This document shows, piece by piece, positions 5,669 to 20,223 of a stretch of DNA of 64,000 bases. The notes under the pieces are model-generated. The model was not told the origin of the DNA, did no database searches, and saw nothing but the letters and a program-made list of their open reading frames with translations. A program made the position numbers and the translations under genes. This stretch comes from Roseococcus sp. SDR. GTDB lineage: Bacteria; Pseudomonadota; Alphaproteobacteria; Acetobacterales; Acetobacteraceae. The DNA is taken from contig NZ_JAHRCU010000008.1 of the NCBI RefSeq assembly GCF_019083995.1, positions 62,001 to 126,000 of the forward strand, read 5' to 3'. How positions within the stretch are numbered: position 1 is the first letter of the stretch; each line of letters opens with the position of its first letter.

Positions 5669-6471
5669 CTCCACACATGAACCCCCGGCCCGGATGCCAG
5701 GCCGATCAGGGCCGCGACCGGGGCGGCGGCCATCACGCCGTCCAGCCGGTCGAGCAGCCCGCCATGCCCAGGCAGCAGCCCGGACGAATCCTTCACGCCG
5801 AAGCGCCGCTTGATCCAACTCTCAAACATGTCGCCCGACTGGGTGGCAAGGCCCAGCAGGACGGCCACCGCCGCGATGGTGCCGAGCGGCGCTGGCCCGC
5901 CCAGGGCCAAGGCGGCGCCAAGGCCAACCAGCATGGCGCCGAGCAGGCCGCCCAGCGCGCCCGACCAGGTCTTATTGGGGGAGATCCGGGGCGCGAGCTT
6001 GGGCCCGCCCAGGAAGCGGCCGGTGAAATAGGCCGAGATGTCCGAAGCCCAGACGACGAGGAACAGGAACAGCACATTGCCGCGCCCGGCCGCGCCGTCA
6101 TGCCGCAACTCGAGCAGCGCGATGCCCGCCAGGCCGATATAGAGCACGCCGAAGCCCAGCCAATGCGCGGGCAGGGCGCCGGCCATGCGCCAGGCCACCA
6201 CCGCGCCCAGCGCCACCACGGCAAGGCCCGCGAGCGGCCAGTTCAGCGCGGCAAGGCCCGCGCCGATCAGCACCGGCGGCAGCACCAGCAGCCCCGGCAG
6301 CCGGCGTGAGCGCCCCCCGCAGAGCCGCACCCATTCCCAGCCGAGCCCCAGCACGCAGAGCAGCATGAGCCCCGACCACCAGGCGCCGCCCACCCACATG
6401 CAGAACAGCGCGGCGGGCGCGATGAGGGAGGCGGTCAGGACGCGCGCGCGCAGATCCGCGAGCTGGGCCAT
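5659..6471 (-). CDS. cdsA: CdsA, phosphatidate cytidylyltransferase
   Basis: 270 residues, strongly hydrophobic with about seven to eight membrane helices. It makes CDP-diacylglycerol from phosphatidic acid and CTP for phospholipid synthesis in the inner membrane. The family signature is present near the C-terminus as S-x-x-KRRFGVKD followed by PGHGGLLDRLD, which contains the metal and CDP-binding acidic residues. Its ATG shares an A with the TGA of uppS (TGATG at 6469-6473), so the two are almost certainly translated in a coupled way. The gene's end overlaps the dxr start by 10 bases. Confidence 0.95.
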   Translation of the reverse strand: MAQLADLRARVLTASLIAPAALFCMWVGGAWWSGLMLLCVLGLGWEWVRLCGGRSRRLPGLLVLPPVLIGAGLAALNWPLAGLAVVALGAVVAWRMAGALPAHWLGFGVLYIGLAGIALLELRHDGAAGRGNVLFLFLVVWASDISAYFTGRFLGGPKLAPRISPNKTWSGALGGLLGAMLVGLGAALALGGPAPLGTIAAVAVLLGLATQSGDMFESWIKRRFGVKDSSGLLPGHGGLLDRLDGVMAAAPVAALIGLASGPGVHVWRWV

Positions 6472-7211
6472 CAGCCGGTGCGCGCGCCGAAGCGCCGCTC
6501 CCGCGCGGCATAGGCGGCTAGCGCCGCATTGAAATCCTCGAGGCCGAAATCGGGCCAGAGCACGGGCTGGAAGATCAGCTCGGCATAGGCGGCCTGCCAG
6601 AGCAGGAAATTCGAGATGCGCTGCTCACCGGATGTGCGGATGATCAGGTCCGGGTCCGGCATGCCAGCGGTAAACAGATGCCGTTCGAAGCTCGCCTCAT
6701 CCAGGGCGGCGGGGTCGAGCTCGCCGCGCCGCGCGGCCTCGGCCACGGCGCGCGCGGCGGCCAGGATCTCGGCCCGCGCGCCGTAGGAGATGGCCATGTT
6801 GAGGTTGAGGCGCGTGCCGCCGGCCGTCACTTCCTCGGCCGCCAGCATGGCCTTCTGCGTCTCCTCCCCGAAGCGCGCGCGGTCGCCGATGACGCGCAGG
6901 CGCACCCCTTCCTTGGTCAGCTGGTTCACCTCGGCCCGCAGATAGTGGCGCAGCAGCAGGGTGAGTTCCTGCACCTCATCGGCCGGGCGGGACCAGTTCT
7001 CGGAGGAGAAGGCGAAGAGCGTCAGCCAGGAGACGCCGGCCCGGATCGCCGCCTCGATGGCGCGCCGCGCCGCATCCGCCCCGGCGCGGTGGCCGAGTGC
7101 GACGGGAAGTCCACGCGCCTGGGCCCAGCGGCGGTTGCCATCCATGATGATGGCGACATGCCGGGGCGTCTCCGCCCCTGCACCCGCCACTGGAGCCGGG
7201 TGCGCGCTCAT
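6471..7211 (-). CDS. uppS: UppS, (di-trans,poly-cis) undecaprenyl-diphosphate synthase
   Basis: 246 residues. It condenses isopentenyl-PP onto farnesyl-PP to give the C55 lipid carrier used for peptidoglycan and other envelope polymers. The catalytic motif is clear as HVAIIMDGNRRWA near residue 20, where the Asp binds the allylic diphosphate. FAFSSENW follows in the middle and IIRTSGEQRISNFLLWQ near the end, both diagnostic for cis-prenyltransferases. The ATG at 7209-7211 shares a base with the frr stop (TGATG). A TTG one codon earlier is possible but less likely. Confidence 0.96.
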   Translation of the reverse strand: MSAHPAPVAGAGAETPRHVAIIMDGNRRWAQARGLPVALGHRAGADAARRAIEAAIRAGVSWLTLFAFSSENWSRPADEVQELTLLLRHYLRAEVNQLTKEGVRLRVIGDRARFGEETQKAMLAAEEVTAGGTRLNLNMAISYGARAEILAAARAVAEAARRGELDPAALDEASFERHLFTAGMPDPDLIIRTSGEQRISNFLLWQAAYAELIFQPVLWPDFGLEDFNAALAAYAARERRFGARTG

Positions 7212-7786
7212 CAAACGGTCTTGATGTCCTTTTCCTTCTCGGCGAGGAGGACATCGATCTTCTTCACATACTCGTCCGTCAGCTTCTGGACCTCGTCGGA
7301 CCAGCGCTTGGCGTCATCCTCGCCGATCTCGGACTTCTTCTTCCAGGCCTGGATCTGCTCCATGCCGTCGCGGCGCACGCCGCGGATCGCGACCTTGGCA
7401 CCCTCGGAATACTTGGAGGCGGTCTTCGCCAGCTCATTGCGGCGCTGCTCGGTCAACGGCGGCAGCATGACGCGGATGGTCTGGCCTTCGGATTGCGGAT
7501 TGAGCCCGAGGCCCGAATCACGGATCGCAATCTCGACGGCCTTCACGACCGAGCGGTCCCAGACCTGCACCTGCAGCATGGACGGGCCGGCGACCGAGAC
7601 GTTGCCGACCTGCGAGAGCGGCTGGTTGTTGCCATAGGCCTCGACGCGGATCGGCTCCAGCAGCGAGGGGCTGGCGCGGCCGGTGCGAAGCCCGCTGAAC
7701 TCCTTCTTCAGCGTGTCGATCGCGCCATCCATGCGGCGCACCAGATCGGTCTTCAGGACCTGACGGTCGGGCGGGGGAGCGGCCAT
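7211..7786 (-). CDS. frr: Ribosome recycling factor
   Basis: 191 residues, near the family's usual 185. With EF-G it splits the post-termination ribosome. The sequence shows the expected three-helix-bundle pattern: an N-terminal DLVRRMDGAIDTLKKEF, the conserved LRTGRASPSLLEPIRVEAYG, and the C-terminal helix with RRDGMEQIQAWKK and KLTDEYVKKID. It lies 12 bases after pyrH and overlaps the start of uppS, in the usual order pyrH-frr-uppS. Confidence 0.97.
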   Translation of the reverse strand: MAAPPPDRQVLKTDLVRRMDGAIDTLKKEFSGLRTGRASPSLLEPIRVEAYGNNQPLSQVGNVSVAGPSMLQVQVWDRSVVKAVEIAIRDSGLGLNPQSEGQTIRVMLPPLTEQRRNELAKTASKYSEGAKVAIRGVRRDGMEQIQAWKKKSEIGEDDAKRWSDEVQKLTDEYVKKIDVLLAEKEKDIKTV

Positions 7787-7798
7787 GATGTGTGACTT

Positions 7799-8524
7799 TC
7801 AGGGCGTGTCGGTGACGGTGGTGAAGCGGCCTTCGCCGCGGATCACGGCGGTGAAGGCGCCGGGTTCGTGGATGTTGAAGACGATGATGGGCAGGTGGTT
7901 CTCGCGCGCGACCGAGATCGCCGCCGCATCCATCACGGCGAGGTCGCGCGAGAGCATTTCGAGGTAGCTCAACGTGGTGTAGCGCGAGGCGTCCGGGTTC
8001 TTGCGCGGATCGCTGTCATAGACGCCATCCACCTGCGTGCCCTTGAGCAGCGCCTGGCAGCCCATCTCGGCCGCGCGGAGCGCCGCAGCCGTATCGGTGG
8101 TGAAGAAGGGGTTGCCGGTGCCGGCCGCGAAGATCACCACGCGGCCCTTCTCCATGTGCCGCATGGCGCGGCGGCGGATATAGGGCTCGCAGATCGAGCT
8201 CATCTCGATGGCGGATTGCACGCGCGTCTGCACGCCGATCTTCTCGAGCGCGGATTGCATGCCGAGCGCGTTCATCACGGTGGCCAGCATGCCCATGTAA
8301 TCGGCCTGGGCACGGTCCATGCCGGTCGCCGCACCTGCGACACCGCGGAAGATGTTGCCGCCGCCGATCACCAGCGCGACCTCGACACCGAGGTCCACCA
8401 CGCCCTTGATGTCCTGCGCGATGGCCTTCACGGTCGTGACGTCAAGGCCATAGGCGCGGTCGCCCATCAGGGCCTCGCCCGAGACCTTCAGCAGGACGCG
8501 CTTGTAGCGGGGCGGTTCGCTCAT
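7799..8524 (-). CDS. pyrH: Uridylate kinase (UMP kinase)
   Basis: 241 residues. This hexameric bacterial UMP kinase phosphorylates UMP to UDP in pyrimidine nucleotide synthesis. It belongs to the amino-acid-kinase fold: [14 protein letters not shown] at the N-terminus, [13 protein letters not shown], the [13 protein letters not shown] helix, and [19 protein letters not shown] near residue 140, all standard PyrH segments. A terminator-like hairpin (8616-8653) separates it from tsf upstream, so the 92-base region 8525-8616 probably carries its own promoter and the pyrH-frr-uppS-cdsA-dxr-rseP-bamA-skp-lpxD chain may start here. Confidence 0.97.
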
Positions 8525-8615
8525 GGCGGGGGACGGTTCCTTGGCGGTTGGTGCGACGATAGCAGGGGGGCGGGTCGCCGCAAGCGCTCGCGGCCGCCGG
8601 ATGGTCGGGCCCGCC

Positions 8616-8653
8616 GAAAAAGGGGCGGGCCGGGGCTGATCGCCCGGCCCGCC
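8616..8653 (-). terminator. Rho-independent terminator after rpsB-tsf
   Basis: Read on the minus strand, an 11-base-pair perfect GC stem (arms 8643-8653 and 8624-8634) with an 8-base loop is followed, two bases later, by a run of T residues (A run at 8617-8621 on the plus strand). It lies 8 bases past the tsf stop and should end the rpsB-tsf transcript before pyrH. Confidence 0.8.
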
Positions 8654-8661
8654 ATTCGCCT

Positions 8662-9573
8662 TTACGAAACGCCGGCGGTGGCGGCCACTTCGGCCGCGAA
8701 GTCGGAGACCTGCTTCTCGATCCCCTCGCCGAGCTGGAAGCGGGTGAAGCCGGTCAGCTTCAGGCCCAGCTTGTCCACCACGGCCTTCACGCGGCTCTCG
8801 CCGTCATGCACCCAGACCTGCTCCAGGAGGACCACTTCCTCGTAGAACTTGCGGATGCGGCCTTCCACCATCTTCTCGATGACGGCGGGCGGCTTGCCAG
8901 AGGCCTGGGCCTGCTCGGTCAGCACGGCCTTCTCGCGCTCGAGCGCGGAGGGCTCGACGGCGCTGATGTCCAGCGCCGCCGGGCGGGTGGCCGCGACGTG
9001 CATGCCGATCTGGCGACCCAGCGTCTCCATCACCGACATCTCGTTCTCGCCCTCGAGGGCGACGAGCACGCCGATCTTGCCGAGGCCCGGCTTCACGGCG
9101 TTGTGCATGTAGGTGGCGACCGCGCCCTTGCTCACGCGCAGCACGCTGGCGCGGCGGATCGTCATGTTCTCGCCGATGGTGGCGATCAGCTTCGTCAGCT
9201 CTTCCTGGGTGCTGTGCTGCGTGCCCGGATAGGTCGCGGCCTTCAGCGCCTCGATGTCGTCGCCGACGGAGAGCGCCAGCCCCGCCACCTCGGAGACGAA
9301 GTTCTGGAAGCTCTCATTGCGCGCGACGAAATCCGTCTCGGCATTCACTTCCACCATCGCGGCCACATGCGGGCCGGAGGCGACGCCCACCAGGCCCTCG
9401 GCGGCCACGCGGCCGGACTTCTTCGCCGCGGCGGAGAGGCCCTTCTTGCGCAGCCAGTCGATCGCGGCCTCGATGTCGCCGCCGGTTTCCACCAGCGCCT
9501 TCTTGCAATCCATCATGCCGGCACCCGTCGCTTCGCGCAGGTCCCGAACCAGGGCAGCCGTGATTTCAGCCAT
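8662..9573 (-). CDS. tsf: Elongation factor Ts
   Basis: 303 residues. EF-Ts is the guanine-nucleotide exchange factor for EF-Tu. The N-terminal UBA-like domain has [19 protein letters not shown], and the first core signature is [11 protein letters not shown]. The C-terminal [10 protein letters not shown] and the alphaproteobacterial dimerisation region are present. It is 24 bases downstream of rpsB, the universal partner gene, and is followed by an intrinsic terminator, giving a two-gene transcript. Confidence 0.97.
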
Positions 9574-9597
9574 CTTCTTGCTCCTTCTTGCGCGCGA

Positions 9598-10383
9598 TCA
9601 GGCCTGGGCGGCCGGCTCTTCGGCGGCGACCTCGATGGTCACCTCCTCGGCCACCGGCTCGGCCAGGGCGCCGACATCGCGGCCCGAGGCTTGCATCTCG
9701 GCCGAGATGCCGTCGAACACGGCGGCCGCGATCAGGTCGCAATAAAGGTTGATGGCGCGGATCGCGTCGTCATTGCCCGGGATCGGGAAGGTGACGCCGG
9801 TGGGATCGCAGTTGCTGTCCACCACGGCCACCACCGGGATGCCAAGCGTATTGGCTTCCTGGATGGCGAGCTTCTCCTTCACGACGTCGATCACGAAGAT
9901 CATGTCGGGCAGGCCGCCCATCTCCCGGATGCCGCCCAGCGCGCGGTCGAGCTTGTCGCGCTCGCGCGTCAGCATCAGGATTTCCTTCTTGGTCAGGCCC
10001 TGGATGTCGCCCGAGAGGCGCGCATCCATCTCCTTCAGGCGCTTGATCGAGCCCGTGATGGTCTTCCAGTTGGTCAGCATGCCGCCGAGCCAGCGGTGGT
10101 TCACGTAGTACTGGCCGCAGCGCGTCGCGGCCTCGGCCACGTATTCCGCCGCCGCCTTCTTGGTGCCCACGAAGAGCACGCGGCCGCCGCCGGCCACCGT
10201 GTCACGCACCGTGCGCAGCGCGCGCTCCAGCATGGGCACGGTCTGCTGCAGGTCCAGGATATGCACCTGGTTGCGCACGCCGAAGATGTAGGGCGCCATG
10301 CGCGGGTTCCAGCGCCGCGTGTGGTGGCCGAAATGCACGCCCGCCTCGAGCAGCTGGCGCAGGGAAACTTCTGGCATCGCCAT
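9598..10383 (-). CDS. rpsB: 30S ribosomal protein S2
   Basis: 261 residues. S2 binds the back of the small subunit between head and body. Recognisable segments are [20 protein letters not shown] at the N-terminus, RVLFVGTKK, the MTNW of [12 protein letters not shown], and [18 protein letters not shown] near the C-terminus. A Glu/Ala/Val-rich tail of about 25 residues extends past the fold, a common alphaproteobacterial feature. It is the first gene of the rpsB-tsf transcript, and its 5' leader (10384-10520) has striking complementary segments that may regulate it. Confidence 0.97.
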
Positions 10384-10404
10384 GTCGAACTTCCTTCCGA
10401 ATCA

Positions 10405-10481
10405 GTCCGGTTGAGCCTCCGCGGTGCAAACCTCGGGGATGAGCCGAGACCGGACCCTGCCGTGAGGAAGGGAGCACCGCG
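10405..10481 (-). promoter_or_regulatory. Structured leader upstream of rpsB (candidate autoregulatory RNA)
   Basis: The rpsB 5' leader, read on the minus strand, has three complementary pairs: an 8-base pair (10474-10481 with 10420-10427), a 7-base pair (10449-10455 with 10405-10411), and a 5-base hairpin (10444-10448 with 10432-10436). The first two cross, so they would form a pseudoknot or two exclusive folds. The last arm ends 22 bases before the ATG, next to the ribosome-binding region (GGAAGGAA). Regulation of rpsB-tsf by S2 binding to a leader is known in gammaproteobacteria; applying it here is inference. Confidence 0.45.
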
Positions 10482-10520
10482 TGTGGATTTCCGCGGGGCC
10501 CATGCCTCGCGGTGGCTGGC

Positions 10521-11117
10521 CTATGGCCGAAAACCGCCCGGAAGGCAACCCGCGGCCACCGCTTCCAGCGCGGATCTGAGCCGCGCGGCACCCTGTTCCA
10601 CCGGGCCGTCATTGATGACGCGCAGCATGTCGAGCCCGTCCGGCAGCGGCACCTCGCGCGCCAGGCGGGCTGCGATGGCGCCCGCATCCTCCCGCCCGCG
10701 CGCGGCCAGGCGCGCGGCCAGCAGGGCAGGGGGCGCCGTCACCTCGATCACGGTCAGCGCGCGTAGCGCCGCCGCCTGGAGGAGCACCGCGCGCGAGAGG
10801 CTGAGCACCACGACCCGATCCGCCGGCGCCTCCTCATGCCGGATGCCGTAGCCCAGGCCATGGGCGCGCCAATGCAGCAGGAACTGGCCTGCCGCGAGGG
10901 CTGTCTCGTAACCCTCGGGCGTCAGTGCCTCATGCACCTCGCCACCCGCGACCTCGGGCCGGGTGATGCTGCGGCGGGCGAAGTGGAAGCGCGGGTCACC
11001 CTTCAGCCCTGCCCTCACCGCATCCAGCAGCGTGTCCTTGCCCGCGCCCGAGGGGCCGGCGAGCGCGACCCAGCCCGGTTGACCGAAGCCCGCAATCGCC
11101 CCCAGATCAGACGGCAT
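10521..11117 (-). CDS. phnN: PhnN-type ribose 1,5-bisphosphate kinase (guanylate-kinase fold)
   Basis: 198 residues. The Walker A motif is GPSGAGKDT at residues 21-29, the PhnN form with Asp after the Lys, and RRSITRP follows as in the family. PhnN converts ribose 1,5-bisphosphate to PRPP at the end of the C-P lyase route. It can be told from guanylate kinase by the Walker A form and by FLLHWRAHGLGYGI. No other phn gene is in the window, so here it is an orphan that may simply salvage ribose bisphosphate. Its ATG is only 17 bases from the divergent gamma-glutamyltransferase-like gene. Confidence 0.8.
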   Translation of the reverse strand: MPSDLGAIAGFGQPGWVALAGPSGAGKDTLLDAVRAGLKGDPRFHFARRSITRPEVAGGEVHEALTPEGYETALAAGQFLLHWRAHGLGYGIRHEEAPADRVVVLSLSRAVLLQAAALRALTVIEVTAPPALLAARLAARGREDAGAIAARLAREVPLPDGLDMLRVINDGPVEQGAARLRSALEAVAAGCLPGGFRP

Positions 11118-11134
11118 CCGAAAAGGTCTTCCCC

Positions 11135-12922
11135 ATGTTCACCACCCGCCCCGAGATCGCCGGCACCTTCGGCGCGGTCGCCACCACGCATTGGCTGGCG
11201 AGCCAGGTCGGCATGGCCGTGCTCGAGCGCGGCGGCAATGCCTTCGACGCCGCGGCCGCCGCCGGCTTCACCCTGCAGATCGTCGAGCCGCACCTCAATG
11301 GCCCGGGCGGTGATTGTCCCATCATTCTGCACGATGCCAAGCAGGGTCGCGAAATTGTCATCTGCGGGCAGGGGCCGGCCCCTTCCGGGCTGAGTGTGGA
11401 CCTGATCGCGAACAAGCTCGGCCTCGACATCATGCCGGGCACGGGCTTCCTGCCCGCCCCCATCCCCGGCGCCTTCGACGCCTGGGCCACCATGCTGCAG
11501 AACCACGGCACCTGGCGGCTGCGCGACGTGCTGGCCTATGCCATCGGCTATGCCCGCAATGGCGCGCATATGGTGGCGCGCATCTGCCAGACGGTGGCCA
11601 CCGTCCGCCCGCTCTTCGAGGCGGAATGGACCTGCTCCGCCGCGCTCTGGCTGCGCAATGGCGGCCCGCAGCCCGGCCAGCTCTATGCCAACCCCACGCT
11701 GGCCGACACCTATGAGCGCGTCCTGCGCGAGGCCGAGGCCCCCGGCCGCTCGCGCGAGATGGAGATCGAGGCCGCCCGCCGCGCCTGGTATTCCGGCTTC
11801 GTGGCCGAAGCGGTCGAGCGCTTCGCCCGCATCCCCGCCATGGACACCTCCGGCCAGCGCCATGCGGGCGTGATCACCGCGCATGACATGTCCCAATGGC
11901 GCGCCGGCATCGAGGAGGCGGTGCGCCTCGATTATCGCGGCACCACCGTCCTGAAATGCGGCGCCTGGAGCCAGGGGCCGGCCATGCTGCAGACGCTGGC
12001 GCTGCTCGCCGGCTATGACCTCGCCGCGATGGACCCGGTGGGCGCGGATTACGTCCATCACGTCACCGAGGCCATGAAGCTCGCCTTCGCCGACCGGGAG
12101 GCCTTCTATGGCGACCCGAATTTCGTGGATGTGCCGCTCGCGACCCTGCTCTCGCCGGAATATGCCGAGGCGCGCCGCAAGCTGATCGGTCCCGACGCGT
12201 CGCTGGAATTCCGCCCCGGCAATCCGGACGGCCTCCCCATCCGCGGTGTGGACTATGCCGCCGCCGTCCGCCGCGCCGAGGAAATGGCCATGGCCGCCGG
12301 CACGGGTGAGCCCACCGTCTCGCGCCTCGGCGCGGCCGGTGGTGACACCTGCCATGTGGACGTGATCGACCGCGACGGGAATTTCGTCAGCGCCACGCCC
12401 TCGGCCGGCTGGCTGCAATCCTCGCCGGCCATCCCGGAACTCGGCTTCTGCCTCGGCACGCGCTGCCAGATGTTCTGGCTCGACGAATCCCTCCCCAACG
12501 GCCTGAAGCCCGGCAAGCGGCCGCGCACCACCCTCTCGCCCTCCATGGTGCTGCGCGACGGCAAGCCCTGGATGAGCTTCGGCACGCCCGGCGGCGAGCA
12601 GCAGGACCAGTGGCAGCCCATCATGCTCACCCGCATGCTGGCGCATGGCTTCAACATCCAGGAAGCGATCGACCTGCCCAGCTTCCACTCCGAACACTGG
12701 GTCAGCAGCTTCTGGCCGCGCGGCGCCAAGCCCGGCAAGCTCGTCCTCGAAGGCCGCTTCGCGCCGGACGTCCTCGCCGCCCTCCGCGCCCGCGGCCACC
12801 GCGCCGAAATGGGCGGCGACTGGAGCGAAGGCCGCCTCACCGGCGCCCGCCGCGAAGCCGATGGCCAGATCTTCGCCGGCGCCAACCCGCGCGGCATGCA
12901 GGGCTATGCCGTGGGGCGGTGA
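11135..12922 (+). CDS. Gamma-glutamyltransferase-family Ntn hydrolase
   Basis: 595 residues with no signal peptide, so probably cytoplasmic, unlike the periplasmic Ggt of E. coli. The N-terminal segment (GTFGAVATTHWLAS..GMAVLERGGNAFDAA) and NGPGGD are typical of the large subunit. The likely autoprocessing nucleophile is Thr405 in GGDTCHVDVIDRDGNFVS. PRTTLSPSMVLRDGKPWMSFGTPGG near the end is the conserved small-subunit segment. Family members hydrolyse or transfer gamma-glutamyl groups or act as acylases; the substrate here cannot be told. An upstream AAGG provides a weak ribosome-binding site. It converges on an SDR gene across a hairpin-rich spacer. Confidence 0.85.
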   Translation: MFTTRPEIAGTFGAVATTHWLASQVGMAVLERGGNAFDAAAAAGFTLQIVEPHLNGPGGDCPIILHDAKQGREIVICGQGPAPSGLSVDLIANKLGLDIMPGTGFLPAPIPGAFDAWATMLQNHGTWRLRDVLAYAIGYARNGAHMVARICQTVATVRPLFEAEWTCSAALWLRNGGPQPGQLYANPTLADTYERVLREAEAPGRSREMEIEAARRAWYSGFVAEAVERFARIPAMDTSGQRHAGVITAHDMSQWRAGIEEAVRLDYRGTTVLKCGAWSQGPAMLQTLALLAGYDLAAMDPVGADYVHHVTEAMKLAFADREAFYGDPNFVDVPLATLLSPEYAEARRKLIGPDASLEFRPGNPDGLPIRGVDYAAAVRRAEEMAMAAGTGEPTVSRLGAAGGDTCHVDVIDRDGNFVSATPSAGWLQSSPAIPELGFCLGTRCQMFWLDESLPNGLKPGKRPRTTLSPSMVLRDGKPWMSFGTPGGEQQDQWQPIMLTRMLAHGFNIQEAIDLPSFHSEHWVSSFWPRGAKPGKLVLEGRFAPDVLAALRARGHRAEMGGDWSEGRLTGARREADGQIFAGANPRGMQGYAVGR

Positions 12923-12932
12923 GGTTGCCCTA

Positions 12933-13140
12933 GGGAGGACGCCGTCCTCCCCAGACCCCACCTGCCAAGGGCCGAGAGGCCCTTGGAACCCGGGACTGGG
13001 CCTTGGGAGGGAGGGGGCGTCGCGGGAGCGCCCGTGATCCAGGGCGCGCCCTGCCCCCTCCCTCCCAAGGCCAAACTCTCGGCGGGTCCAGGGGCGCCAC
13101 GCCCCTGGCGGGAGGGTCCGGGAGGGCAACGCCCTCCCGG
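12933..13140. repeat. Run of five perfect intergenic hairpins
   Basis: The 235-base spacer between two convergent genes is almost wholly inverted repeats: 12933-12951 (stem about 8-9), 12965-12986 (9-base stem, GAGA loop), 12999-13018 with 13053-13072 (20 bases, perfect, enclosing 34 bases), 13088-13108 (9-base stem) and 13118-13140 (10-base stem, AAC loop). None has a clear T run. The fourth hairpin has the core CCAGGGGC/GCCCCTGG also found between hisG and hisD (20147-20165), so this looks like a dispersed REP-like family. It may also act as a bidirectional terminator. Confidence 0.8.
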
Positions 13141-13157
13141 GGAAGAACCTCAACGCA

Positions 13158-13907
13158 TCACAGCTTGCGCTGCATCTGCGCCAGGTAGCTGCGGTTGCGC
13201 GTCGGCGTGATCAGCACTTCGTTGATGCAGACATGCGGCGGCTGGCTGGCGAGGAATTTCACCAGGGCGCCGCAATCTTCCGGCTGCACCATCTCGGCGA
13301 GTTCCTTTTCGGTGAGCTTGTTGGGGCGTTTGTCGAGGATGGGCGTGCGGACTTCGCCCGGGCACATCACGGTGCTGCGGATGCCGTTGCCGCATTCCTC
13401 CATGTTCAGCGAATGGCTCATGGCGACCACGCCGTGCTTGCTCGCGGTATAGCCGGCGCCGCTCAGCGGGCTGACGAAGCGGCCGGCCATCGAGGCCGTG
13501 TGGATGAAGAGGCCGTCCTTCTGCGCGCGCATGATGGGAAGGGCCGCCAGCACGCCGTGGAAGGCGGAGGTGAGGTTGCCTTCGACGAGTTCCTTCACGC
13601 CCTCGGCCGAGAGGTTGCTCCAGCGGCGTTCGGTGATGTTGAGTCCGGCATTGTTCACCATGACGTCGAGGCGGCCGAGCTTCTGCTGGATGAAGTCCGC
13701 GACCTTCTGCACGGCGGCGGCCTTGCTCATGTCGGCGGTCTTGACGTGGGCGGTGCCGCCCATGGCCTTGATGCGCGCGGCGACGGCATCAAGCTTGGCC
13801 TTGGTGCGGCCGGTCAGCACGACGATCATGCCCATCTCGGCCAGCGCGATCGCCGCTGCCTCGCCGATGCCGCTGCCCGCACCCGTCACCCATGCGACCT
13901 TTGTCAT
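13158..13907 (-). CDS. Short-chain dehydrogenase/reductase (SDR)
   Basis: 249 residues. Classical SDR: NAD(P)-binding TGAGSGIG at residues 8-15, NNAG in the middle, and catalytic Ser (TASMAG), Tyr and Lys (YTASK). Function is oxidoreduction of an unidentified alcohol or ketone. I start at ATG 13907, which has a long purine-rich ribosome-binding site (AGGAAGGAAGG) just upstream and places the Rossmann motif normally. It is divergent from the D-2-hydroxyacid dehydrogenase gene (128 bases between starts), which suggests shared regulation. Confidence 0.88.
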   Translation of the reverse strand: MTKVAWVTGAGSGIGEAAAIALAEMGMIVVLTGRTKAKLDAVAARIKAMGGTAHVKTADMSKAAAVQKVADFIQQKLGRLDVMVNNAGLNITERRWSNLSAEGVKELVEGNLTSAFHGVLAALPIMRAQKDGLFIHTASMAGRFVSPLSGAGYTASKHGVVAMSHSLNMEECGNGIRSTVMCPGEVRTPILDKRPNKLTEKELAEMVQPEDCGALVKFLASQPPHVCINEVLITPTRNRSYLAQMQRKL

Positions 13908-14034
13908 TGGACCTTCCTTCCTTGGCTTGGTTGCGGCCAGTCTGCCGCAAGGCCGCGCGCTGGCAAGCCCGCGGCCTTGCCGGGTGCGGGGACGCATGCT
14001 TGGCTTGCCCCACAAGAGAGGGAGGCCAAGGCCA

Positions 14035-15078
14035 ATGGCGAAGTTCCGCATCGTGACGCCCGCGGGCGCCAGTTTCACCACCGCCGGGGGCGGCTATGAG
14101 CTCGAAATGGAGGCGCTTGCCGGCCTCGATGCCGAGATCGTGGAAGCGCCGACGGACACGGCGGGTTTCATCGCCGCGGCCGCCACGGCGGATGCGATCT
14201 ACGCCAAGGGCATTCCCATCACGGCCGAGATCATCGGCGCGCTGAAGAACTGCAAGGTGATCAGCCTGGGTTCGGTGGGCGTGGACAGCGTGGATGTGAA
14301 GGCGGCGACGCGTGCGGGCATTCCCGTGACGAACGTGCCCGACACCTTCATCGAGGAGGTGGCGGACCACTGCATGATGCTGCTGCTGGCGACCTTCCGC
14401 CGCGCCATCGAGCAGGACCGCATGGTGCGCGAGCATCGCTGGAAGGAAGGCCGCCCGGCGCTGCTGAAGATCCCGCGCCTGATGGGGCAGACGCTGGGCT
14501 TCATCAGCTTCGGCCGCGTGGCGCGCGCGGTGGCGAAGCGCGCCGCCCCCTTCGGCCTGCGCATGATCGCCTATGATCCGTTCCTCGATGAGACGCTGAT
14601 GAGCGAGCACGGCGTGCTGCCGGCGACGCTGACCGAGGTGATGAGCCAGTCCGACTTCGTCTCGATGCATGCGCCGGCCCGGCCGGAATGCAACAAGATG
14701 CTGCAGGAGAAGCACTTCCGCCTGATGAAGAAGAGCGCGATCTTCCTCAATGTCGGCCGTGGCCCTACGGTGGATGAGGCGGCGCTGATCAAGGCGCTGA
14801 GCGAGGGCTGGATCGCCTATGCGGGCCTGGATGTGCTGGAGGTCGAGCCGCCCTCCCACAACAACCCGATCCTCAGCATGGACAATGTGATCCTCTCGGC
14901 GCACACGGCCTCGGCCTCGGCGCGCTTCGATGAGGCGCGCAAGCGCCGCGTGGGCAGCGAGCTCTCGCTGGTGCTGCAGGGCAAGTGGCCGATGAGCTGC
15001 GTGAACCCCGCCGTGCTGCAGAACACGAAACTGCAGCGTTGGCAGCCCGTCGGCCTGGGCCGCGGCCCGAACAGCTGA
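14035..15078 (+). CDS. D-isomer-specific 2-hydroxyacid dehydrogenase (CtBP-like)
   Basis: 347 residues. NAD-dependent dehydrogenases of this family reduce 2-keto acids or oxidise D-2-hydroxy acids. The cofactor loop reads LGFISFGRVARAVA, with Ser where most members have Gly (LGxxGxGxIG). Catalytic candidates are the Arg in NVGRGP, the Glu in LDVLEVEPP and the His in SAHTAS. The segment RPECNKML is usual in this family. I use ATG 14035, preceded by GGGAGG. The substrate is unknown; neighbouring SDRs and a Bug receptor suggest catabolism of an organic acid. Confidence 0.85.
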   Translation: MAKFRIVTPAGASFTTAGGGYELEMEALAGLDAEIVEAPTDTAGFIAAAATADAIYAKGIPITAEIIGALKNCKVISLGSVGVDSVDVKAATRAGIPVTNVPDTFIEEVADHCMMLLLATFRRAIEQDRMVREHRWKEGRPALLKIPRLMGQTLGFISFGRVARAVAKRAAPFGLRMIAYDPFLDETLMSEHGVLPATLTEVMSQSDFVSMHAPARPECNKMLQEKHFRLMKKSAIFLNVGRGPTVDEAALIKALSEGWIAYAGLDVLEVEPPSHNNPILSMDNVILSAHTASASARFDEARKRRVGSELSLVLQGKWPMSCVNPAVLQNTKLQRWQPVGLGRGPNS

Positions 15079-15117
15079 GGTGATGGGGCGGGTGATCCGG
15101 CGGGGCCGGATCACCCC

Positions 15118-16089
15118 TCAATCCAGCACGATCCCGCGCGCCCGGATGATCGCGGACCAGCGCGCGCGTTCCGTCTCGATCATCCGGCTGAGGGCGGCCT
15201 GGTCCCGCACCGGCTGGATCAGCAGGCCGAGGCCGCCGAAGCGCTCCTGGAAGCCATTGTCGCGCTGCACCTCGGCCAGTGCCGCGCTGAGCCGGGCCTG
15301 GATCGGCTGTGGCGTGGAGCGCGGCGCGGCGACGCCGAACCAGGTCGTCGCCTCGTAATCCGGGAAGCCCTGCTCGGCCACGCTCGGCACCTGGGGCAGC
15401 ACGGGCACGCGGCCGCGCGTCGTCACCGCCAGCGCGCGCAGGCGCCCGGCCTGCACCAGGGGCAGCGCCGTCAGGATCACGTCGAACATCACCTGCACAT
15501 CGCCCGCCATCAGCGCGGTCAGTGCCGGCGCGCTGCCGGGATAGACGACGTTCTCCAGCTCGATCCCCGCCGCGCTGCGGAACAGCTCGGCGGCGAGGTG
15601 GATCGGATTGCCCACGCCGACCGTCGCGGCGTTCAGCCGCCGCTGGCGGGCAAGCGCGACGAATTCCGCGAGGTTCGCGGCGGGCAGCGCGGGCGGGACG
15701 ACCATGAGCAGCGGCGTTTCGACCATCGCGGCCAGCAGCGTGAGGTCGCGGTCGGCGTCGTAGGGCAGGCGGCGGTAGAGCAGCGGGTTCACCACCATGC
15801 TGGCGCCCGAGGCCATGAGCAGCGTGGTGCCATCGCCCGCGGCCTGGGCCACGGCCTGGGTGCCGATGATGGTATTGGCCCCGGCGCGGTTCTCGACCAC
15901 GACCGGCTGGCCCAATTCGCGTGAGAGACGCTCGGCGATGAAGCGGCCGAGCTGGTCGGTCACACCGCCCGGCGCATAGGGCACGACGAGGCGGAGCGGG
16001 CGGCTGGGCCAGGCCTCCTGCGCGCGCAGGGCTGGCGCCGCCAGCGCGGCCGGAACCGCGATGGCCGCGCGGCGTGTCAGCGATGCCAT
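15118..16089 (-). CDS. Bug-family (TctC) periplasmic solute-binding protein
   Basis: 323 residues. The N-terminus MASLTRRAAIAVPAALAAPALRAQ is a signal peptide ending ALRAQ. The body starts with WPSRPLRLVVPYAPGG and contains VVENRAGAN, the phosphate/carboxylate-binding pattern of Bug proteins. These bind small carboxylates or related compounds for tripartite tricarboxylate transporters; no TctA/TctB membrane gene is nearby, as is common for these expanded families. It starts 3 bases after the upstream SDR, so it is the third gene of a SAF oxidoreductase-SDR-Bug operon. The ligand cannot be predicted. Confidence 0.92.
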   Translation of the reverse strand: MASLTRRAAIAVPAALAAPALRAQEAWPSRPLRLVVPYAPGGVTDQLGRFIAERLSRELGQPVVVENRAGANTIIGTQAVAQAAGDGTTLLMASGASMVVNPLLYRRLPYDADRDLTLLAAMVETPLLMVVPPALPAANLAEFVALARQRRLNAATVGVGNPIHLAAELFRSAAGIELENVVYPGSAPALTALMAGDVQVMFDVILTALPLVQAGRLRALAVTTRGRVPVLPQVPSVAEQGFPDYEATTWFGVAAPRSTPQPIQARLSAALAEVQRDNGFQERFGGLGLLIQPVRDQAALSRMIETERARWSAIIRARGIVLD

Positions 16090-16092
16090 GGC

Positions 16093-16875
16093 TCAGTCCT
16101 CGACGAGGGGCGGGCCGGCCAGCACGCCGCCATCGATCACCATGCTCTGCCCGGTCATGAAGCCGGAGGCGGCGCTGGCCAGGAAGACGGCAGCCCCCGC
16201 GATCTCGTCCGGCTCGCCGATGCGCAGCAGTGGCGTGTCGCGCGTGCGCTTCTTCAGGTTCACCGGATCTTCCCACAGGGCGCGGGCGAAGTCGGTCCGC
16301 ACCAGGCCGGGGGCGATGGCGTTCACGCGCACGCCGCGCGGGCCCCATTCGGTGGCCAGCGCGCGCGCCAGCTGCATGTCCGCCGCCTTGGAGACGCCGT
16401 AGATGCCCAGCCGCGGTGAACCGCGGAAGCCGCCGATCGAGCTCACGATGATGACCGAGCCGCCGCCACGCGCCGCCATGCCCGGGATCGCCATCTGGCA
16501 GAGCCAGAGGTTGCTCCGGACATTGGAGTTCATGATGCGGTCATAGGCCTCGTCCGGAATGTCCTGCGAGGGGCCGAAATAGGGGTTCACCGCCGCGTTG
16601 CAGACCAGCACGTCCACCTGGCCATAGGCCGCGATGGTGGCATCCACCAGCGCCTGCAGCTCGGGCTTGCGGCCGATGTTGCAGGCGACCGCCATGGCGG
16701 TGCCGCCATTCGCCGTGATGCCGTCCACCACCTCCTGGCAGGCATCGAGCTTGCGGGAGCTGACGACGACCTTGGCGCCATGCTGCGCCAGACGCTCGCA
16801 GATGGCGCGGCCGATGCCGCGGCTGCCGCCGGTGACGATGGCGACCTTGCCGGTCAGGTCGAACAGGTTTTGCAC
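16093..16875 (-). CDS. Short-chain dehydrogenase/reductase (SDR), GTG start
   Basis: 260 residues. Begins at GTG 16875, chosen because GGAGGAAG sits 5-12 bases upstream and the next residues are the normal SDR start (LFDLTGKVAIVTGGSRGIG). The cofactor motif is TGGSRGIG; the NNAG motif is changed to CNAA; catalytic Ser is in SSIGG and Tyr/Lys in YGVSK. NPYFG after CNAA and the C-terminal GQSMVIDGG are often seen in DHRS4-like carbonyl reductases. It lies 40 bases after the SAF-domain oxidoreductase and 3 bases before the Bug gene. Confidence 0.9.
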   Translation of the reverse strand: MQNLFDLTGKVAIVTGGSRGIGRAICERLAQHGAKVVVSSRKLDACQEVVDGITANGGTAMAVACNIGRKPELQALVDATIAAYGQVDVLVCNAAVNPYFGPSQDIPDEAYDRIMNSNVRSNLWLCQMAIPGMAARGGGSVIIVSSIGGFRGSPRLGIYGVSKAADMQLARALATEWGPRGVRVNAIAPGLVRTDFARALWEDPVNLKKRTRDTPLLRIGEPDEIAGAAVFLASAASGFMTGQSMVIDGGVLAGPPLVED

Positions 16876-16915
16876 GCGGGCTTCCTCCGTTTTGTTGGGA
16901 GGAAGCGTAGCGGGC

Positions 16916-18268
16916 CTATTCGGCGGCCAACAGGGGGCGCGCCTGGCTTTCCATCTCGTGGCGGAGCCGCACCGCATCCTGCGTCGCGTCCAGCGCCACG
17001 TCGGATTGGCGCAGGACCGCGCCCGCCGGAATGTCGCGCAGCAGCTTCACGCCATGGGCGAGGCCGATCGGCAGCGCGTTCTCGGCCAGGCTGCGCGCGG
17101 CCGGGATGCACTTGCCCCAGACCATGGCGCCGCCCTCGCCATCCAGGATCTCGCCGGCCTTGAGCGGACGCTTGGCGGTGGCCACCGCATCGCCGCGCCA
17201 GGCCTCGCTCATGCCCGTGGGCTCGCGCCGCAGCGCGACGGAGGCGACGGAGACGGCGAGTTCCAGGCCGATGAGGTGATAGGGGCGCCAGAGTGCGGCG
17301 TAATGGCCGGTGCTGTCCGTGTGCACGCCGTACTCCGAGAAGCAGCGGCGGATATAGTCGGTCTCGCCCTCGAAGACGGCATAGACGCCCCAGCGCAAAT
17401 CCCCTACCACCTGGCGCGCATCGCGCTCCAGGCTGCTGATCACCTCCACCATGCCCTTCTGCGGCAGGATGCCGCCCTCGCTGCGCGGGCGGAGGATATG
17501 CGGCAGGTCCTGCACGCCGCAGGGCGGGAAGGCGAGGCCATCCTCGGGCGGGAGAAGGCCGGTGGCGTTCGCGATGGCGGCCATCTCGATGCTCGACTTC
17601 GTGCCATCGAGGAAGGAGTTGAACATCTGCGGGTTCATCCCGCCCGCCTTGGCCTGCTCCGGCGTCAGCCCGTAATGGCCCCAGACCGTCTCGGGCGTGG
17701 AGGCGTGGAAGATGGGCAGGTATTTCGTGCCCTTGCCGGCGGCGATGACCGGCAGGCCCATGGCGCGGATGGTATCCACCATCTCGCAGACCAGGGCCGG
17801 CTGGTCGCCATAGGCCATGGAATAGACGACGCCCGCCTGGGCGGCCTTCGCCGTCAGCAGCGGGCCGGCCAGCACATCCGCCTCGACATTCACCATGACG
17901 ATGTGCTGGCGCGCGGCGATGGCGGCGAGCGCGTGGCGGATGCCGGCGGCCGGGTTGCCGGTGGATTCCACCACCACCTCGATGCGCGGATCATTCACCG
18001 TCGCCGCATCCTCGGTGACGAAGGTGGCGCCGGAAGCCAGCGCGGCATCGAGGCTGGCGGCGGCCGAACGCTCCGGCTCCCAGCCGATGCGCGTCAGGTT
18101 CTCGCGCGCGCGGGCGGGCGCGAGATCGGCGATCACGGCCACATGGATGCCGGGCGACCGCGCCGCCATGGCGAGGAACATGGCGCCGAACTTGCCGGCG
18201 CCGATGACGCCGACGGTGATGGGCTTTCCAGCCGCCGCGCGGGCGGCGAGGAGGCGGGAGAGGTTCAT
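16916..18268 (-). CDS. COG4091-type NAD(P)-dependent oxidoreductase with C-terminal SAF domain
   Basis: 450 residues. The N-terminal Rossmann domain (ITVGVIGAGKFGAMFLAMAA) resembles the homoserine dehydrogenase NAD-binding domain. A central catalytic-like region carries HASTPETVWGHYGLTPEQA, and the final 80 residues (RPLKAGEILDGEGG to LRQSDVAL) are a SAF-like domain. The family is called predicted homoserine dehydrogenase with SAF domain, but hom activity is doubtful because the classical homoserine-binding and ACT regions are absent. First gene of a three-gene operon with an SDR and a Bug receptor, so catabolism of a sugar acid or polyol is a reasonable guess. Confidence 0.8.
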   Translation of the reverse strand: MNLSRLLAARAAAGKPITVGVIGAGKFGAMFLAMAARSPGIHVAVIADLAPARARENLTRIGWEPERSAAASLDAALASGATFVTEDAATVNDPRIEVVVESTGNPAAGIRHALAAIAARQHIVMVNVEADVLAGPLLTAKAAQAGVVYSMAYGDQPALVCEMVDTIRAMGLPVIAAGKGTKYLPIFHASTPETVWGHYGLTPEQAKAGGMNPQMFNSFLDGTKSSIEMAAIANATGLLPPEDGLAFPPCGVQDLPHILRPRSEGGILPQKGMVEVISSLERDARQVVGDLRWGVYAVFEGETDYIRRCFSEYGVHTDSTGHYAALWRPYHLIGLELAVSVASVALRREPTGMSEAWRGDAVATAKRPLKAGEILDGEGGAMVWGKCIPAARSLAENALPIGLAHGVKLLRDIPAGAVLRQSDVALDATQDAVRLRHEMESQARPLLAAE

Positions 18269-18333
18269 GGTCGGGTCACCTGTTCAAATGCCTGGCGCAG
18301 ACAAGCCACGGCCCGGCCCTGGAGGCAAGCCGC

Positions 18334-18705
18334 CTACTGCACCAGCACGCAGGAGGGGTTTTCCTGCGTGCCCGAGACCTGGAGCGTGGCCGCCCGGTCG
18401 CCCAGCCCCGTGACCTGGCAGAGTTGGCGCAGAGGGCCGCCCACATTGCCGCGGATGGTGAAGCGCACCTGCGTGGCACCCGGCTGGCCGCGCTGGCAAC
18501 GCCGGCCGGGGTCGGTGACGACATAGTAGATGTTGTTCCAGGTGCCGGCGCTGTCGCGGGCGTCCATGATGATATTGGCGGCCCAGCTGCTCTGAAGTTC
18601 CACGCAGTAGAGGAAGAAGGTCGAATTCTGGCTTTGCGCGGGGGGCGCGATGGCCAGGGCCGAGAGGCCCAAGGCGGATGCGGCGAGCAGGGTGTTGCGG
18701 ATCAT
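18334..18705 (-). CDS. Small secreted protein of unknown function
   Basis: 123 residues, not recognised. Residues 1 to about 25 (MIRNTLLAASALGLSALAIA..AQSQ) form a signal peptide, so the mature part of about 98 residues should be periplasmic or exported. It contains three Cys (in LYCVEL, RRCQRG and QLCQV) and one near the C-terminus (SCVLVQ), enough for two disulfides, and looks beta-rich. It stands alone between the SAF oxidoreductase and hisD, with GGAGAT just upstream as a ribosome-binding site. Confidence 0.7.
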   Translation of the reverse strand: MIRNTLLAASALGLSALAIAPPAQSQNSTFFLYCVELQSSWAANIIMDARDSAGTWNNIYYVVTDPGRRCQRGQPGATQVRFTIRGNVGGPLRQLCQVTGLGDRAATLQVSGTQENPSCVLVQ

Positions 18706-18817
18706 CGGGGATCTCCTTCGCCAACCATGCTACCGCTGCGCCGGGGCCTGCCCAATCGGTGCGCGCGATCGATGCGATCGGTTTCGCCCGATCATCACGG
18801 CCGCCACACGCCGCCTG

Positions 18818-20104
18818 TCAGAGCCGGATGGCGACGCTCGCCGCATGGGCGCCCAGGCCCTCGGCCTCGGCCAGCTTGACCGCGGCGGGGCCGATGGCGG
18901 CCAGGCCCACGGCATTGGCCTCCACCCAGGTGGTCCGCTTCAGGAAATCATAGACCGAGAGGCCCGAGGCGAAGCGGCTGGTGCGGCCGGTGGGCAGCAC
19001 ATGGTTGGGGCCGGCCACGTAGTCGCCGATGGCTTCGGGCGTGTAGCGGCCGAGGAAGGCGGCGCCCGCGTGGCGGATTCGCGCGAAGAGGGCCTGTGGA
19101 TCGGCCGTCATGATCTGCAGGTGCTCCGGCGCCAGGCGATTGGTGAGGTTGGCGGCCTCCTCCCAGTTCTGGACCAGGATGATGGCGCCATGCCTGGCCC
19201 AGCTTTCGCCCGCGATGGCGCGGCGGGGCAGGGTTTCCAGGGCCTTCTCCACCTCGCGCGCCACGGCCTGCGCGAAGCCCGCGTCATCGGTGATGAGGAT
19301 GGATTGCGCGGCCTCGTCATGCTCGGCCTGGGCCATCAGGTCCATCGCCACATGGGCCGGGTTGTTCGTGCCATCGGCCAGGATCAGCACTTCGGAGGGG
19401 CCGGCGATGGAATCGATGCCGACGCGGCCGAAAACCTGGCGCTTGGCTTCCGCCACATAGGCATTGCCAGGGCCCACCACGCGGTCCACCGGCGCGATGC
19501 TCGCCGTGCCCCAGGCCAGCGCCGCCACCGCCTGCGCGCCGCCGATGCGCCAGACTTCCGTGACACCCGCGCGGCGGGCGGCGGCCAGCACCAGCGGGTT
19601 GAGCGCGCCGCCCGGCGTGGGGACGACCATGGCGAGGCGCGCCACGCCGGCCACGCGCGCCGGGATGGCGTTCATCAGCACGGAGGAGGGGTAGGCCGCC
19701 TTGCCGCCAGGGACGTAGAGGCCGACCGCATCGAGCGCGTTCCAGCGCAGGCCGAGGGCGACGCCATCGGCGCCGGGGAGGACGAGGTCGGCCGGGAGTT
19801 GCGCGCGGTGGAAGGCTTCGATGCGCTGTGCGGCCAGGTCGAGCGCTTCCAGCAGCGTTGGCTCCACGCTGGCGATGGCGGCGTCGACCTCGGCGGGGGT
19901 GACGCGCAGCGCCGTGGGGTCGGCCGGCGCCCAGCCGTCGAAGCGCGCGGTCAGGCGCAGCAGGGCGGTGTCGCCTTCGCTGCGGATGGACTGGATGATC
20001 TCGGCGACGGCGGCGTCCACGCGCGTGGTCGTATCGCGCCCATCTTCCAGGATGGCGGTGAAGGCGGCTTCGAAGCCGGCATCGCGTGTGCTGATCAGCT
20101 GCAT
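18818..20104 (-). CDS. hisD: Histidinol dehydrogenase
   Basis: 428 residues, the normal length. It catalyses the last two steps of histidine synthesis, histidinol to histidine, with zinc and two NAD. I start at ATG 20104 (MQLISTRDAGFE); an earlier in-frame start adds residues encoded by an intergenic hairpin region. Recognisable segments are YVPGGKAAYPSSVLMNAIPA, the zinc-ligand region AQAEHDEAAQ, and PNHVLPTG near the C-terminus. It lies 119 bases downstream of hisG across a spacer with three hairpins. Confidence 0.96.
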   Translation of the reverse strand: MQLISTRDAGFEAAFTAILEDGRDTTTRVDAAVAEIIQSIRSEGDTALLRLTARFDGWAPADPTALRVTPAEVDAAIASVEPTLLEALDLAAQRIEAFHRAQLPADLVLPGADGVALGLRWNALDAVGLYVPGGKAAYPSSVLMNAIPARVAGVARLAMVVPTPGGALNPLVLAAARRAGVTEVWRIGGAQAVAALAWGTASIAPVDRVVGPGNAYVAEAKRQVFGRVGIDSIAGPSEVLILADGTNNPAHVAMDLMAQAEHDEAAQSILITDDAGFAQAVAREVEKALETLPRRAIAGESWARHGAIILVQNWEEAANLTNRLAPEHLQIMTADPQALFARIRHAGAAFLGRYTPEAIGDYVAGPNHVLPTGRTSRFASGLSVYDFLKRTTWVEANAVGLAAIGPAAVKLAEAEGLGAHAASVAIRL

Positions 20105-20120
20105 GTCAAACTCATGGTTC

Positions 20121-20214
20121 CCAAAGGCCTGGGCCTTTGGCGGGGTCCAGGGGCAGCGCCCCTGGGGGCATGTTTGAGGGGCTGATTCACGCCTTTGGTG
20201 ATTCCACCAAAGGC
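20121..20214. repeat. Three hairpins between hisG and hisD
   Basis: Three perfect inverted repeats follow each other: 20121-20140 (stem 8-9 bases, CCAAAGGC type), 20147-20165 (8-base stem CCAGGGGC, AGC loop) and 20191-20214 (10-base stem, ATTC loop). The outer two share the CCTTTGG/CCAAAGG core. The middle one matches the CCAGGGGC core of the 13088-13108 hairpin. They sit inside an operon, so they may stabilise or attenuate the murA-hisG-hisD message, or be dispersed REP-like elements with no function. Confidence 0.75.
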
Positions 20215-20223
20215 GATCAGACC

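Follow-up and report, generated by a model that had tools for sequence, protein, structure and literature searches.

A dispersed five-stem palindromic cassette at gene 3' ends in Roseococcus and other Acetobacteraceae

The spacer of 235 nt that separates a plus-strand gene (end at 12922) from a minus-strand gene (end at 13158) in the window, that is, in the whole stretch of 64,000 nucleotides of Roseococcus sp. SDR analysed here, is a copy of a palindromic cassette of gene 3' ends that has five stems, is dispersed and appears to be non-coding. The copies of this cassette have a common fold, not common stem letters; of the orthologous sites compared, some have an intact element, some have it inverted in place, some retain a remnant and some have none. 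Judged from its sequence and placement, it probably serves as a bidirectional 3'-end or terminator unit at gene ends, termination being the part that we infer.

Architecture of the cassette

Four perfect short hairpins (12933-12951, 12965-12986, 13088-13108 and 13118-13140; arms of 8-10 nt, loops of 3-4) accompany a long perfect pair of 20-nt arms (12999-13018/13053-13072) with 34 nt between them, and the nearly all-hairpin spacer between convergent genes that an earlier note on this DNA had claimed, 20-base arms included, was found as described. Non-overlapping perfect hairpins (arm of at least 8, loop of 3-8) number four in the spacer, against a mean of 0.13 and a maximum of 2 in 1000 dinucleotide-preserving shuffles, and the longest arm of 20 compares with a maximum of 13 in 200 shuffles; shuffle counts and arm length together rule out chance hairpins of GC-rich DNA, and the window hairpins are real and far above chance expectation. 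The five separate hairpins of the earlier note are present; what it overlooked is that they form a single unit in fixed order, and this five-stem unit bears out its remark that there is more structure here than one terminator hairpin needs. The unit spans 12930-13140 (211 bp), slightly more than the 12933-13140 given before, and has the following parts and neighbours:

11135..12922, plus strand: upstream convergent gene
12923..12929, unstranded: left flank, from stop codon to H1; family-wide, flanks pair with the opposite flank
12930..12954, unstranded: H1, outer hairpin; 11 positions per arm, 1 mismatch, loop GCC
12955..12962, unstranded: linker L1 (ACCCCACC), opposite L4; family-wide a weak closing stem of 3 consensus pairs
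12963..12988, unstranded: H2, inner hairpin; perfect 9-bp core at 12965-12986, loop GAGA
12989..12996, unstranded: linker L2 (CCCGGGAC)
12997..13074, unstranded: H3, central long stem; 20-nt perfect arms, apical region of 34 nt at 13019-13052
13075..13087, unstranded: linker L3, with GGGT at its end
13088..13108, unstranded: H4, inner hairpin CCAGGGGCG-CCA-CGCCCCTGG
13109..13117, unstranded: linker L4 (CGGGAGGGT)
13118..13140, unstranded: H5, outer hairpin CCGGGAGGGC-AAC-GCCCTCCCGG
13141..13157, unstranded: right flank, from H5 to the stop codon of the minus-strand gene
13158..13907, minus strand: facing convergent gene

We take the upstream gene to be gamma-glutamyltransferase-like and the facing gene to be short-chain dehydrogenase-like.

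The stem order is fixed in the 26 copies that were folded and parsed: H1, an ACCCC-type linker, H2, an ACCC-type linker and H3 make up the first half, and H3, a linker with a GGGT end, H4, a GGGAGGGT-type linker and H5 the second. H3 has 14-28 pairs (mostly 19-25) around an apex that usually measures 28-34 nt, and the cassette measures 201-222 nt in 25 of the 26 copies and 191 in L023, which was parsed and omitted from the alignment described below (A1). The parsing script missed or misplaced one inner hairpin in L014, L015, L045, L046 and L061, where the folds show it, and the outer limits of L014, L045, L046 and L061 were set by hand; L016 (which lacks part of H3-H4), L056 and L051 were left out of the parsing.

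A known RNA family is ruled out in that no Rfam family reaches threshold in the spacer: all four gathering-level matches in the window lie outside it, and a permissive search gave 55 sub-threshold matches, mostly to microRNA families. Among the matches above threshold elsewhere in the window is a suhB/mmgR sRNA at 62214-62291. The open-access literature searched held no description of the five-hairpin element; in the available part of an older survey of stem-loop families the alphaproteobacteria named are Brucella and Rickettsia (PMC2267715), and intrastrand triplex repeats, as far as the accessible text describes them (PMC4666352), were considered as a type for the purine-rich arms of the cassette.

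Dispersal within and between genomes

A 232-nt stretch of the spacer, searched by BLAST against its own genome (5.0 Mb in 62 contigs), has near full-length relatives elsewhere, mostly matching on both strands. At E<=1e-15 the genome holds ten places, six of them full-length (>170 bits) and four either shortened or further diverged, at 91-115 bits whichever strand is taken; at the same threshold, own genome included, the element occurs in 14 of 21 genomes of the genus and in at least 48 of 200 sampled genomes of the family, belonging to at least 30 of 102 genera. An earlier BLAST of 60 genomes (own included) gave 20 with E<=1e-6, all Acetobacteraceae, and 24 genomes outside the family gave no BLAST match. 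These copies in genome, genus and family bear out the dispersed REP/BIME-like family that the earlier note had suspected; far from being unique to this site, the hairpins recur elsewhere in the genome and in relatives. Within the genus, genomes range from no copy to about 33 places (the number of places is about half that of matches, which include both strands). One genome with the element, G009 (16 matches, about 8 places), is probably Rubritepida flocculans DSM 14296, since at the window locus it shows the same identity as the record of that strain and an equal 150 nt of downstream sequence. The 72 copies examined comprise 10 of 10 from the own genome, 21 of about 33 from G020, 11 of 14 from G004, 15 of about 15 from G010 and 1-4 from each of seven others, with none from G003 (about 11 places), G001 or G017.

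The smaller parts are dispersed to different degrees. Counted genome-wide, as the earlier note had proposed, the hairpin core CCAGGGGC/GCCCCTGG (loop 1-8) has 11 sites in the own genome against 0 for a reversed-pattern control; six lie between tandem and four between convergent genes, one is flanked by a called gene on a single side, and 4 of the 11 fall inside five-hairpin copies (L002, L006, L007 and L011). The same count for the 20-nt arm (<=2 mismatches) returned both arms of the window site and, as the only second place, the copy on contig C46 with 1 mismatch. A separate hairpin cluster lies at 20121-20215 of the window, in the spacer named hisG-hisD by the earlier note; it carries a GGGGTCC-AGGGGC-loop-GCCCCT hairpin common to other spacers, and the five-hairpin model gave no match there (E<=0.01).

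The earlier note had also proposed mobilisation by a RAYT-type transposase, and as dispersed palindromes at 3' ends, with several copies outside genes as the REP criterion asks, the cassettes do resemble a RAYT-mobilised REP/BIME in placement. This proposal did not hold up. A search for PF01797 (Y1_Tnp, RAYT) left the own genome without a match and was positive in 5 of 14 control genomes; in the genus the domain is found in 1 of 21 genomes, G016, which is among the seven without the element (E<=1e-15); and the GTAG tag occurs in 0 of 72 copies on either strand and in 0 of 72 within 8 nt outside the outer stems. The absence of PF01797 and of the tag rules out RAYT mobilisation at the present day, and a RAYT-mobilised REP/BIME, for which only an ancestral RAYT would be left, is thus a highly improbable account of the family.

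Placement at gene ends and mirror symmetry

Mapped against gene ends, another step that the earlier note had suggested, the copies lie just after stop codons, with convergent pairs in excess. Their neighbours are convergent in 39, tandem in 32 and divergent in 1 of the 72 cases, against 31 convergent, 207 tandem and 55 divergent among 293 other adjacent gene pairs of the same stretches and the window (odds ratio 10 for convergence, p 1.7e-14); with orthologous sites merged (n=47) the figures are 26, 20 and 1 (p 2.9e-11 for convergent, 0.0024 for divergent). The median distance from element to stop codons is 10.5 nt in convergent spacers (38 of 39 sites; genes were called by a codon-usage script, and L230, with an overlapping false call, is left out of the distances and kept among the 39). 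In the 32 tandem spacers the element lies a median of 18 nt past the upstream stop and 42 ahead of the downstream start, with even orientation (17 versus 15, a weak figure given a partly strand-mixed model). In the copies measured no more than 57 nt separate the outer hairpin from the closest upstream stop, a distance that agrees with the definition of a hairpin cluster (at least two hairpins, about 80 nt). The sole divergent copy of the 72, L260 (G020, 2501-2718), sits between the inverted arms GAGGCTGGCAGGTGG/CCACCTGCCAGCCTC.

The hairpins are present and the T run of a classical rho-independent terminator is not, so that this candidate is ruled out in the classical sense. Just as the earlier note had observed, no T run follows the window hairpins; across the family, tails with at least 5 T in 8 number 0 of 110 (71 copies; the divergent copy has no tail), and the 5 terminator-like sites in 5000-22000 of the window (5.3 expected) all lie outside the spacer.

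In convergent spacers the palindromy takes up nearly the whole interval between the two stop codons. Among 25 non-redundant spacers of this kind the distances from the element to either stop correlate (Spearman 0.79, p 2.3e-6) and differ by 3.9 nt on average, against 10.1 with permuted partners (0 of 10000 as small); in 20 tandem spacers no such correlation is seen (0.04). Own 30-nt flanks pair at -38.3 kcal/mol against -27.1 when permuted (-28.8 to -26.1, 20 permutations), alike in convergent and tandem copies, orthologous copies being counted separately. The flank letters between stop codon and element vary by site and are therefore unlike inheritance from one master copy. Over the last 8 codons identity is 0.405 against 0.365 permuted (p 0.017), and the same stop codon stands on both sides in 16 of 25 spacers against 10.7 (p 0.024); the signal is weak, and palindromy into coding ends is not claimed.

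Pairing retained while letters change

RNAalifold predicts 51 pairs on the 25-copy alignment A1, and for 35 of these both sides have changed in at least one copy. Ten of the 25 copies (L019, L024, L046, L048, L052, L061, L063, L065, L067 and L069) stand in A1 opposite to their best BLAST strand; the covariance model R1 built from it is therefore partly strand-mixed, which leaves the fold unaffected and makes strand a weak guide to element orientation. In the 72 copies aligned with R1 the pair cells comprise 3468 Watson-Crick, 70 G-T, 46 A-C, 46 other and 42 gaps, counted over related copies and not as independent events; 35 of the 51 consensus pairs have at least two Watson-Crick types, each in at least three copies, and 12 have three or more types. 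The shared fold with changing letters shows a constraint on pairing or a copying process that acts on it.

On the sense (transcribed) strand of the 32 tandem copies G-T numbers 23 and A-C 18 (p 0.53); the excess of 70 over 46 in all copies on the best-scoring strand (p 0.03) is possibly inflated, because the choice of strand can favour G-T. In Bacillus cereus terminators the GU and AC intermediates stand at 68:8, according to the part of that report available (PMC5381666). With no significant G-T excess on the sense strand the stems are thus unlike a one-strand RNA terminator, and simple selection on one RNA strand is not favoured.

In 21 orthologous pairs of the same orientation (species overlap between pairs), 27 cells have changed on both sides with Watson-Crick pairing kept and 8 on both sides otherwise; 22 changes are one-sided, 4 of them to or from G-T, 8 A-C and 10 other. 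The 27 paired changes, some of which are length changes in both arms, are clustered: 13 at the site of the L151 group (six overlapping pairs), 9 in L156/L222, 4 in L213/L237 and 1 in L216/L239. Three inverted orthologous pairs, two of them at one site, have 10 double changes, 5 G-T, 7 A-C and 1 other. The window copy and its G015 orthologue differ by 6 one-sided changes (3 G-T, 2 A-C, 1 other) and no double change, which counts against a reading by DNA copying.

One account of such pairing is that the cruciform itself is functional, as a supercoiling sink, a site for gyrase or nucleoid proteins, or a barrier to forks or polymerase, and that the RNA is not. Watson-Crick pairing with no clear wobble preference on the sense strand would fit it, as would the inversion of copies in place (see below) and, as a weak point given the strand-mixed model, the even orientation in tandem spacers; on the other side, the position behind stop codons and the rarity of the element between divergent genes point to transcripts, and bidirectional use would likewise suppress wobble in convergent copies. 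We regard a DNA-structure element as unlikely.

Fate of the element at orthologous sites

Between relatives the cassette undergoes in-place inversion, partial deletion and replacement. At the window site the upstream gene is present in 19 of 21 genus genomes at the threshold used. The own genome and G015 have the convergent pair with a complete element between the genes, each in a spacer of 235 nt; the same convergent pair has a short element-free spacer in G007 (71 nt), G008 (25 nt) and G013 (42 nt, with a simple hairpin), and in G012 the genes are separated by 1341 nt of other sequence. The remaining 13 genomes did not show the facing gene downstream (in G001 and G018 the sequence available there is at most 130 nt); after the same stop codon G006 has a four-hairpin cassette and G005, G014 and G019 have other hairpin arrays (by eye). 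Around the end of the orthologous upstream gene in G014 (L269) lies a direct repeat of about 30 bp in about three copies.

A second site, L150, is full in the own genome and full and inverted in G019 (hairpin order by eye), reduced to remnants of 72 nt in G015 and 44 nt in G006, to a two-hairpin half in G001 and G008 and to a hairpin-free 18 nt in G012; the facing gene in G001, G008 and G012 is merely 53-57% alike (53% in G012), and at the other 13 of 20 loci it was not found. Orthologous convergent pairs that lack the element (G007, G008 and G013 at the window site, G012 at L150) imply that it is dispensable there, element-free sites being known only from diverged orthologous loci.

The window copy is 72% identical to its G015 orthologue in flank orientation and 84% with one of them inverted, and at the L151 site the G006 copy matches its orthologues in the own genome, G014, G005 and G019 at 65-66% as lying and 77-82% inverted. 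Of 37 orthologous pairs compared, 7 were flagged as inverted, L151/L231 and L210/L223 by margins too small to count; two further pairs with L251 are undecided (0.67-0.68 both ways), and four L231 pairs and the L238 self-pair were left out. This result is independent of the strand-mixed model R1. The window copy also has more in common with a paralogue on contig C46 (88% identity) than with its orthologue (84%), and at the L216/L239 site (G004/G010) the flanks are at least 93% identical, the elements just 85%, and each is nearer to a copy elsewhere. The nearest copy among the 72 is the orthologue for 29, a same-genome paralogue for 34 and another for 9, many G020 copies having no orthologue in the set.

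Related hairpin cassettes

A related four-hairpin cassette, built with the same grammar as the window element, is the cargo of a MITE in the own genome. Its five copies (L163-L167, 95-100% alike) lie at C1:69786, C1:73398, C1:177777, C3:23598 and C17:55661 and have inverted ends CAGGCTGCTGAAAA, which we take to be IS1182-like, and 4-bp duplicated flanks CTAG, TTAG and CTAA (by eye; one copy imperfect); the genome has 12 occurrences of the end motif, some of them outside the five copies (for example at C1:223264/223475). L162, L168, L169 and L273 are four-hairpin cassettes in spacers at which no MITE ends were noticed. Another hairpin family has the form GGCCTCCGGCGGC-hairpin-GACCCC ... GGGGTC-hairpin-GCCGCCGGAGGCC (L030 and L033 in the own genome, L142/L271, L269), and in some copies a T run then follows.

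The five-hairpin cassette could itself be a selfish palindromic repeat, spread by a mobilising enzyme or as MITE cargo and tolerated at 3' ends as harmless and functionless. The wide variation in copy number is what such a repeat would show, and both the related cassette inside the MITE and the inverted GAGGCTGGCAGGTGG arms around the divergent L260 lend themselves to this account. However, harmless insertion predicts neither kept pairing with changed letters nor mirror-symmetric stop distances; the 30-nt flanks of the 72 copies have no shared terminal repeat, only GC-rich 8-mers in at most 10 copies each; and PF01797, the sole transposase family searched, is absent from 20 of the 21 genus genomes. 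A selfish repeat is accordingly a rather unlikely explanation.

Proposed role and maintenance

The two-way 3'-end role is the best reading because of the placement, the near absence from divergent spacers and the match to hairpin clusters near stop codons, which, in the portion available of a computational study, agree with RNA-seq-derived ends and make poly-U unnecessary (PMC8355165). Transcription of either flanking gene past its stop would yield an RNA that folds into a GC-rich run of hairpins, and this run might stop or slow the polymerase, block 3'-to-5' exonucleases, or both; as the unit is palindromic, it would serve both convergent transcripts. Counting against this role are the lack of a sense-strand wobble excess, the element-free orthologous pairs and the divergent L260.

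What keeps such 3'-end units alike and their stems paired may be copying from one unit to another and from one arm to the other, and not a RAYT. Template switching is a published route to the making and mending of perfect stems, as the accessible part of the source has it (PMC8794818), and its link to the upkeep of the cassette is tentative. The absence of a clear wobble preference, the paired multi-base changes (at few sites), the inversions and the site-specific outer palindromy all point to copying at the DNA level. In the fuller form of this idea, which is possible and somewhat doubtful, the cassette would be a self-perfecting palindrome that template switching in replication and conversion from copy to copy create, extend, repair and invert at gene ends, giving a stop-to-stop palindrome and a two-way 3'-end signal with no transposase.

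If these readings are right, the cassette offers a natural experiment in the evolution of perfect stems: a genome can hold as many as about 33 copies, close relatives have orthologous sites for comparison, and the copies display paired changes, inversions and deletions. It would be a 3'-end repeat that does without RAYTs, in a family from which CGTC REPs are reported to be missing, and template-switch maintenance of hairpins would be directly testable in a cultivable bacterium.

Comparison with known systems

The cassette is best read as REP/BIME-like in placement, yet a separate family. GTAG-tagged REP/BIME elements, in the available text of PMC3733652, are likewise dispersed extragenic palindromes, mostly at convergent or tandem genes and often in composite arrays, and most conv-REPs of two species lie less than 20 bp from both ORF ends; by comparison, the cassette of about 210 bp has five stems in fixed order, its letters vary with pairing kept, and it comes without GTAG and PF01797. 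CGTC-tagged REPs, as that same text presents them, have the same placement and likewise no dedicated transposase, but are single small units, unlike the five-stem cassette, and are reported missing from Acetobacteraceae (PMC3733652). With both strands counted, 58 of 72 copies contain a CGTC, a figure that by a rough estimate is unremarkable for such composition; in 8 of 72 one lies no more than 8 nt beyond the outer stems. Lichenicola cladoniae presumably belongs to the Acetobacteraceae. A 2025 survey counts 1,369 REPs in this species, the part of its description available holding no five-stem unit (PMC12306157); single palindromes of this broad kind have therefore already been counted.

Hairpin-cluster terminators without poly-U likewise consist of several hairpins tens of bases from the stop with no T run, but are described per site in the portion of the study available (PMC8355165), whereas the cassette is one repeated family of fixed architecture. 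The bidirectional intrinsic terminators of Bacillus cereus, as the accessible part of their report describes them (PMC5381666), share compensatory stem evolution and, in some cases, a position at convergent genes; against their 68:8 the cassette has 23:18 on the sense strand and 4:8 among one-sided orthologue changes, and no T run. MITEs with structured interiors come close in that the four-hairpin relative of the cassette is MITE cargo in the own genome; unlike MITEs, the five-hairpin copies stand as cassettes without shared terminal repeats in their 30-nt flanks.
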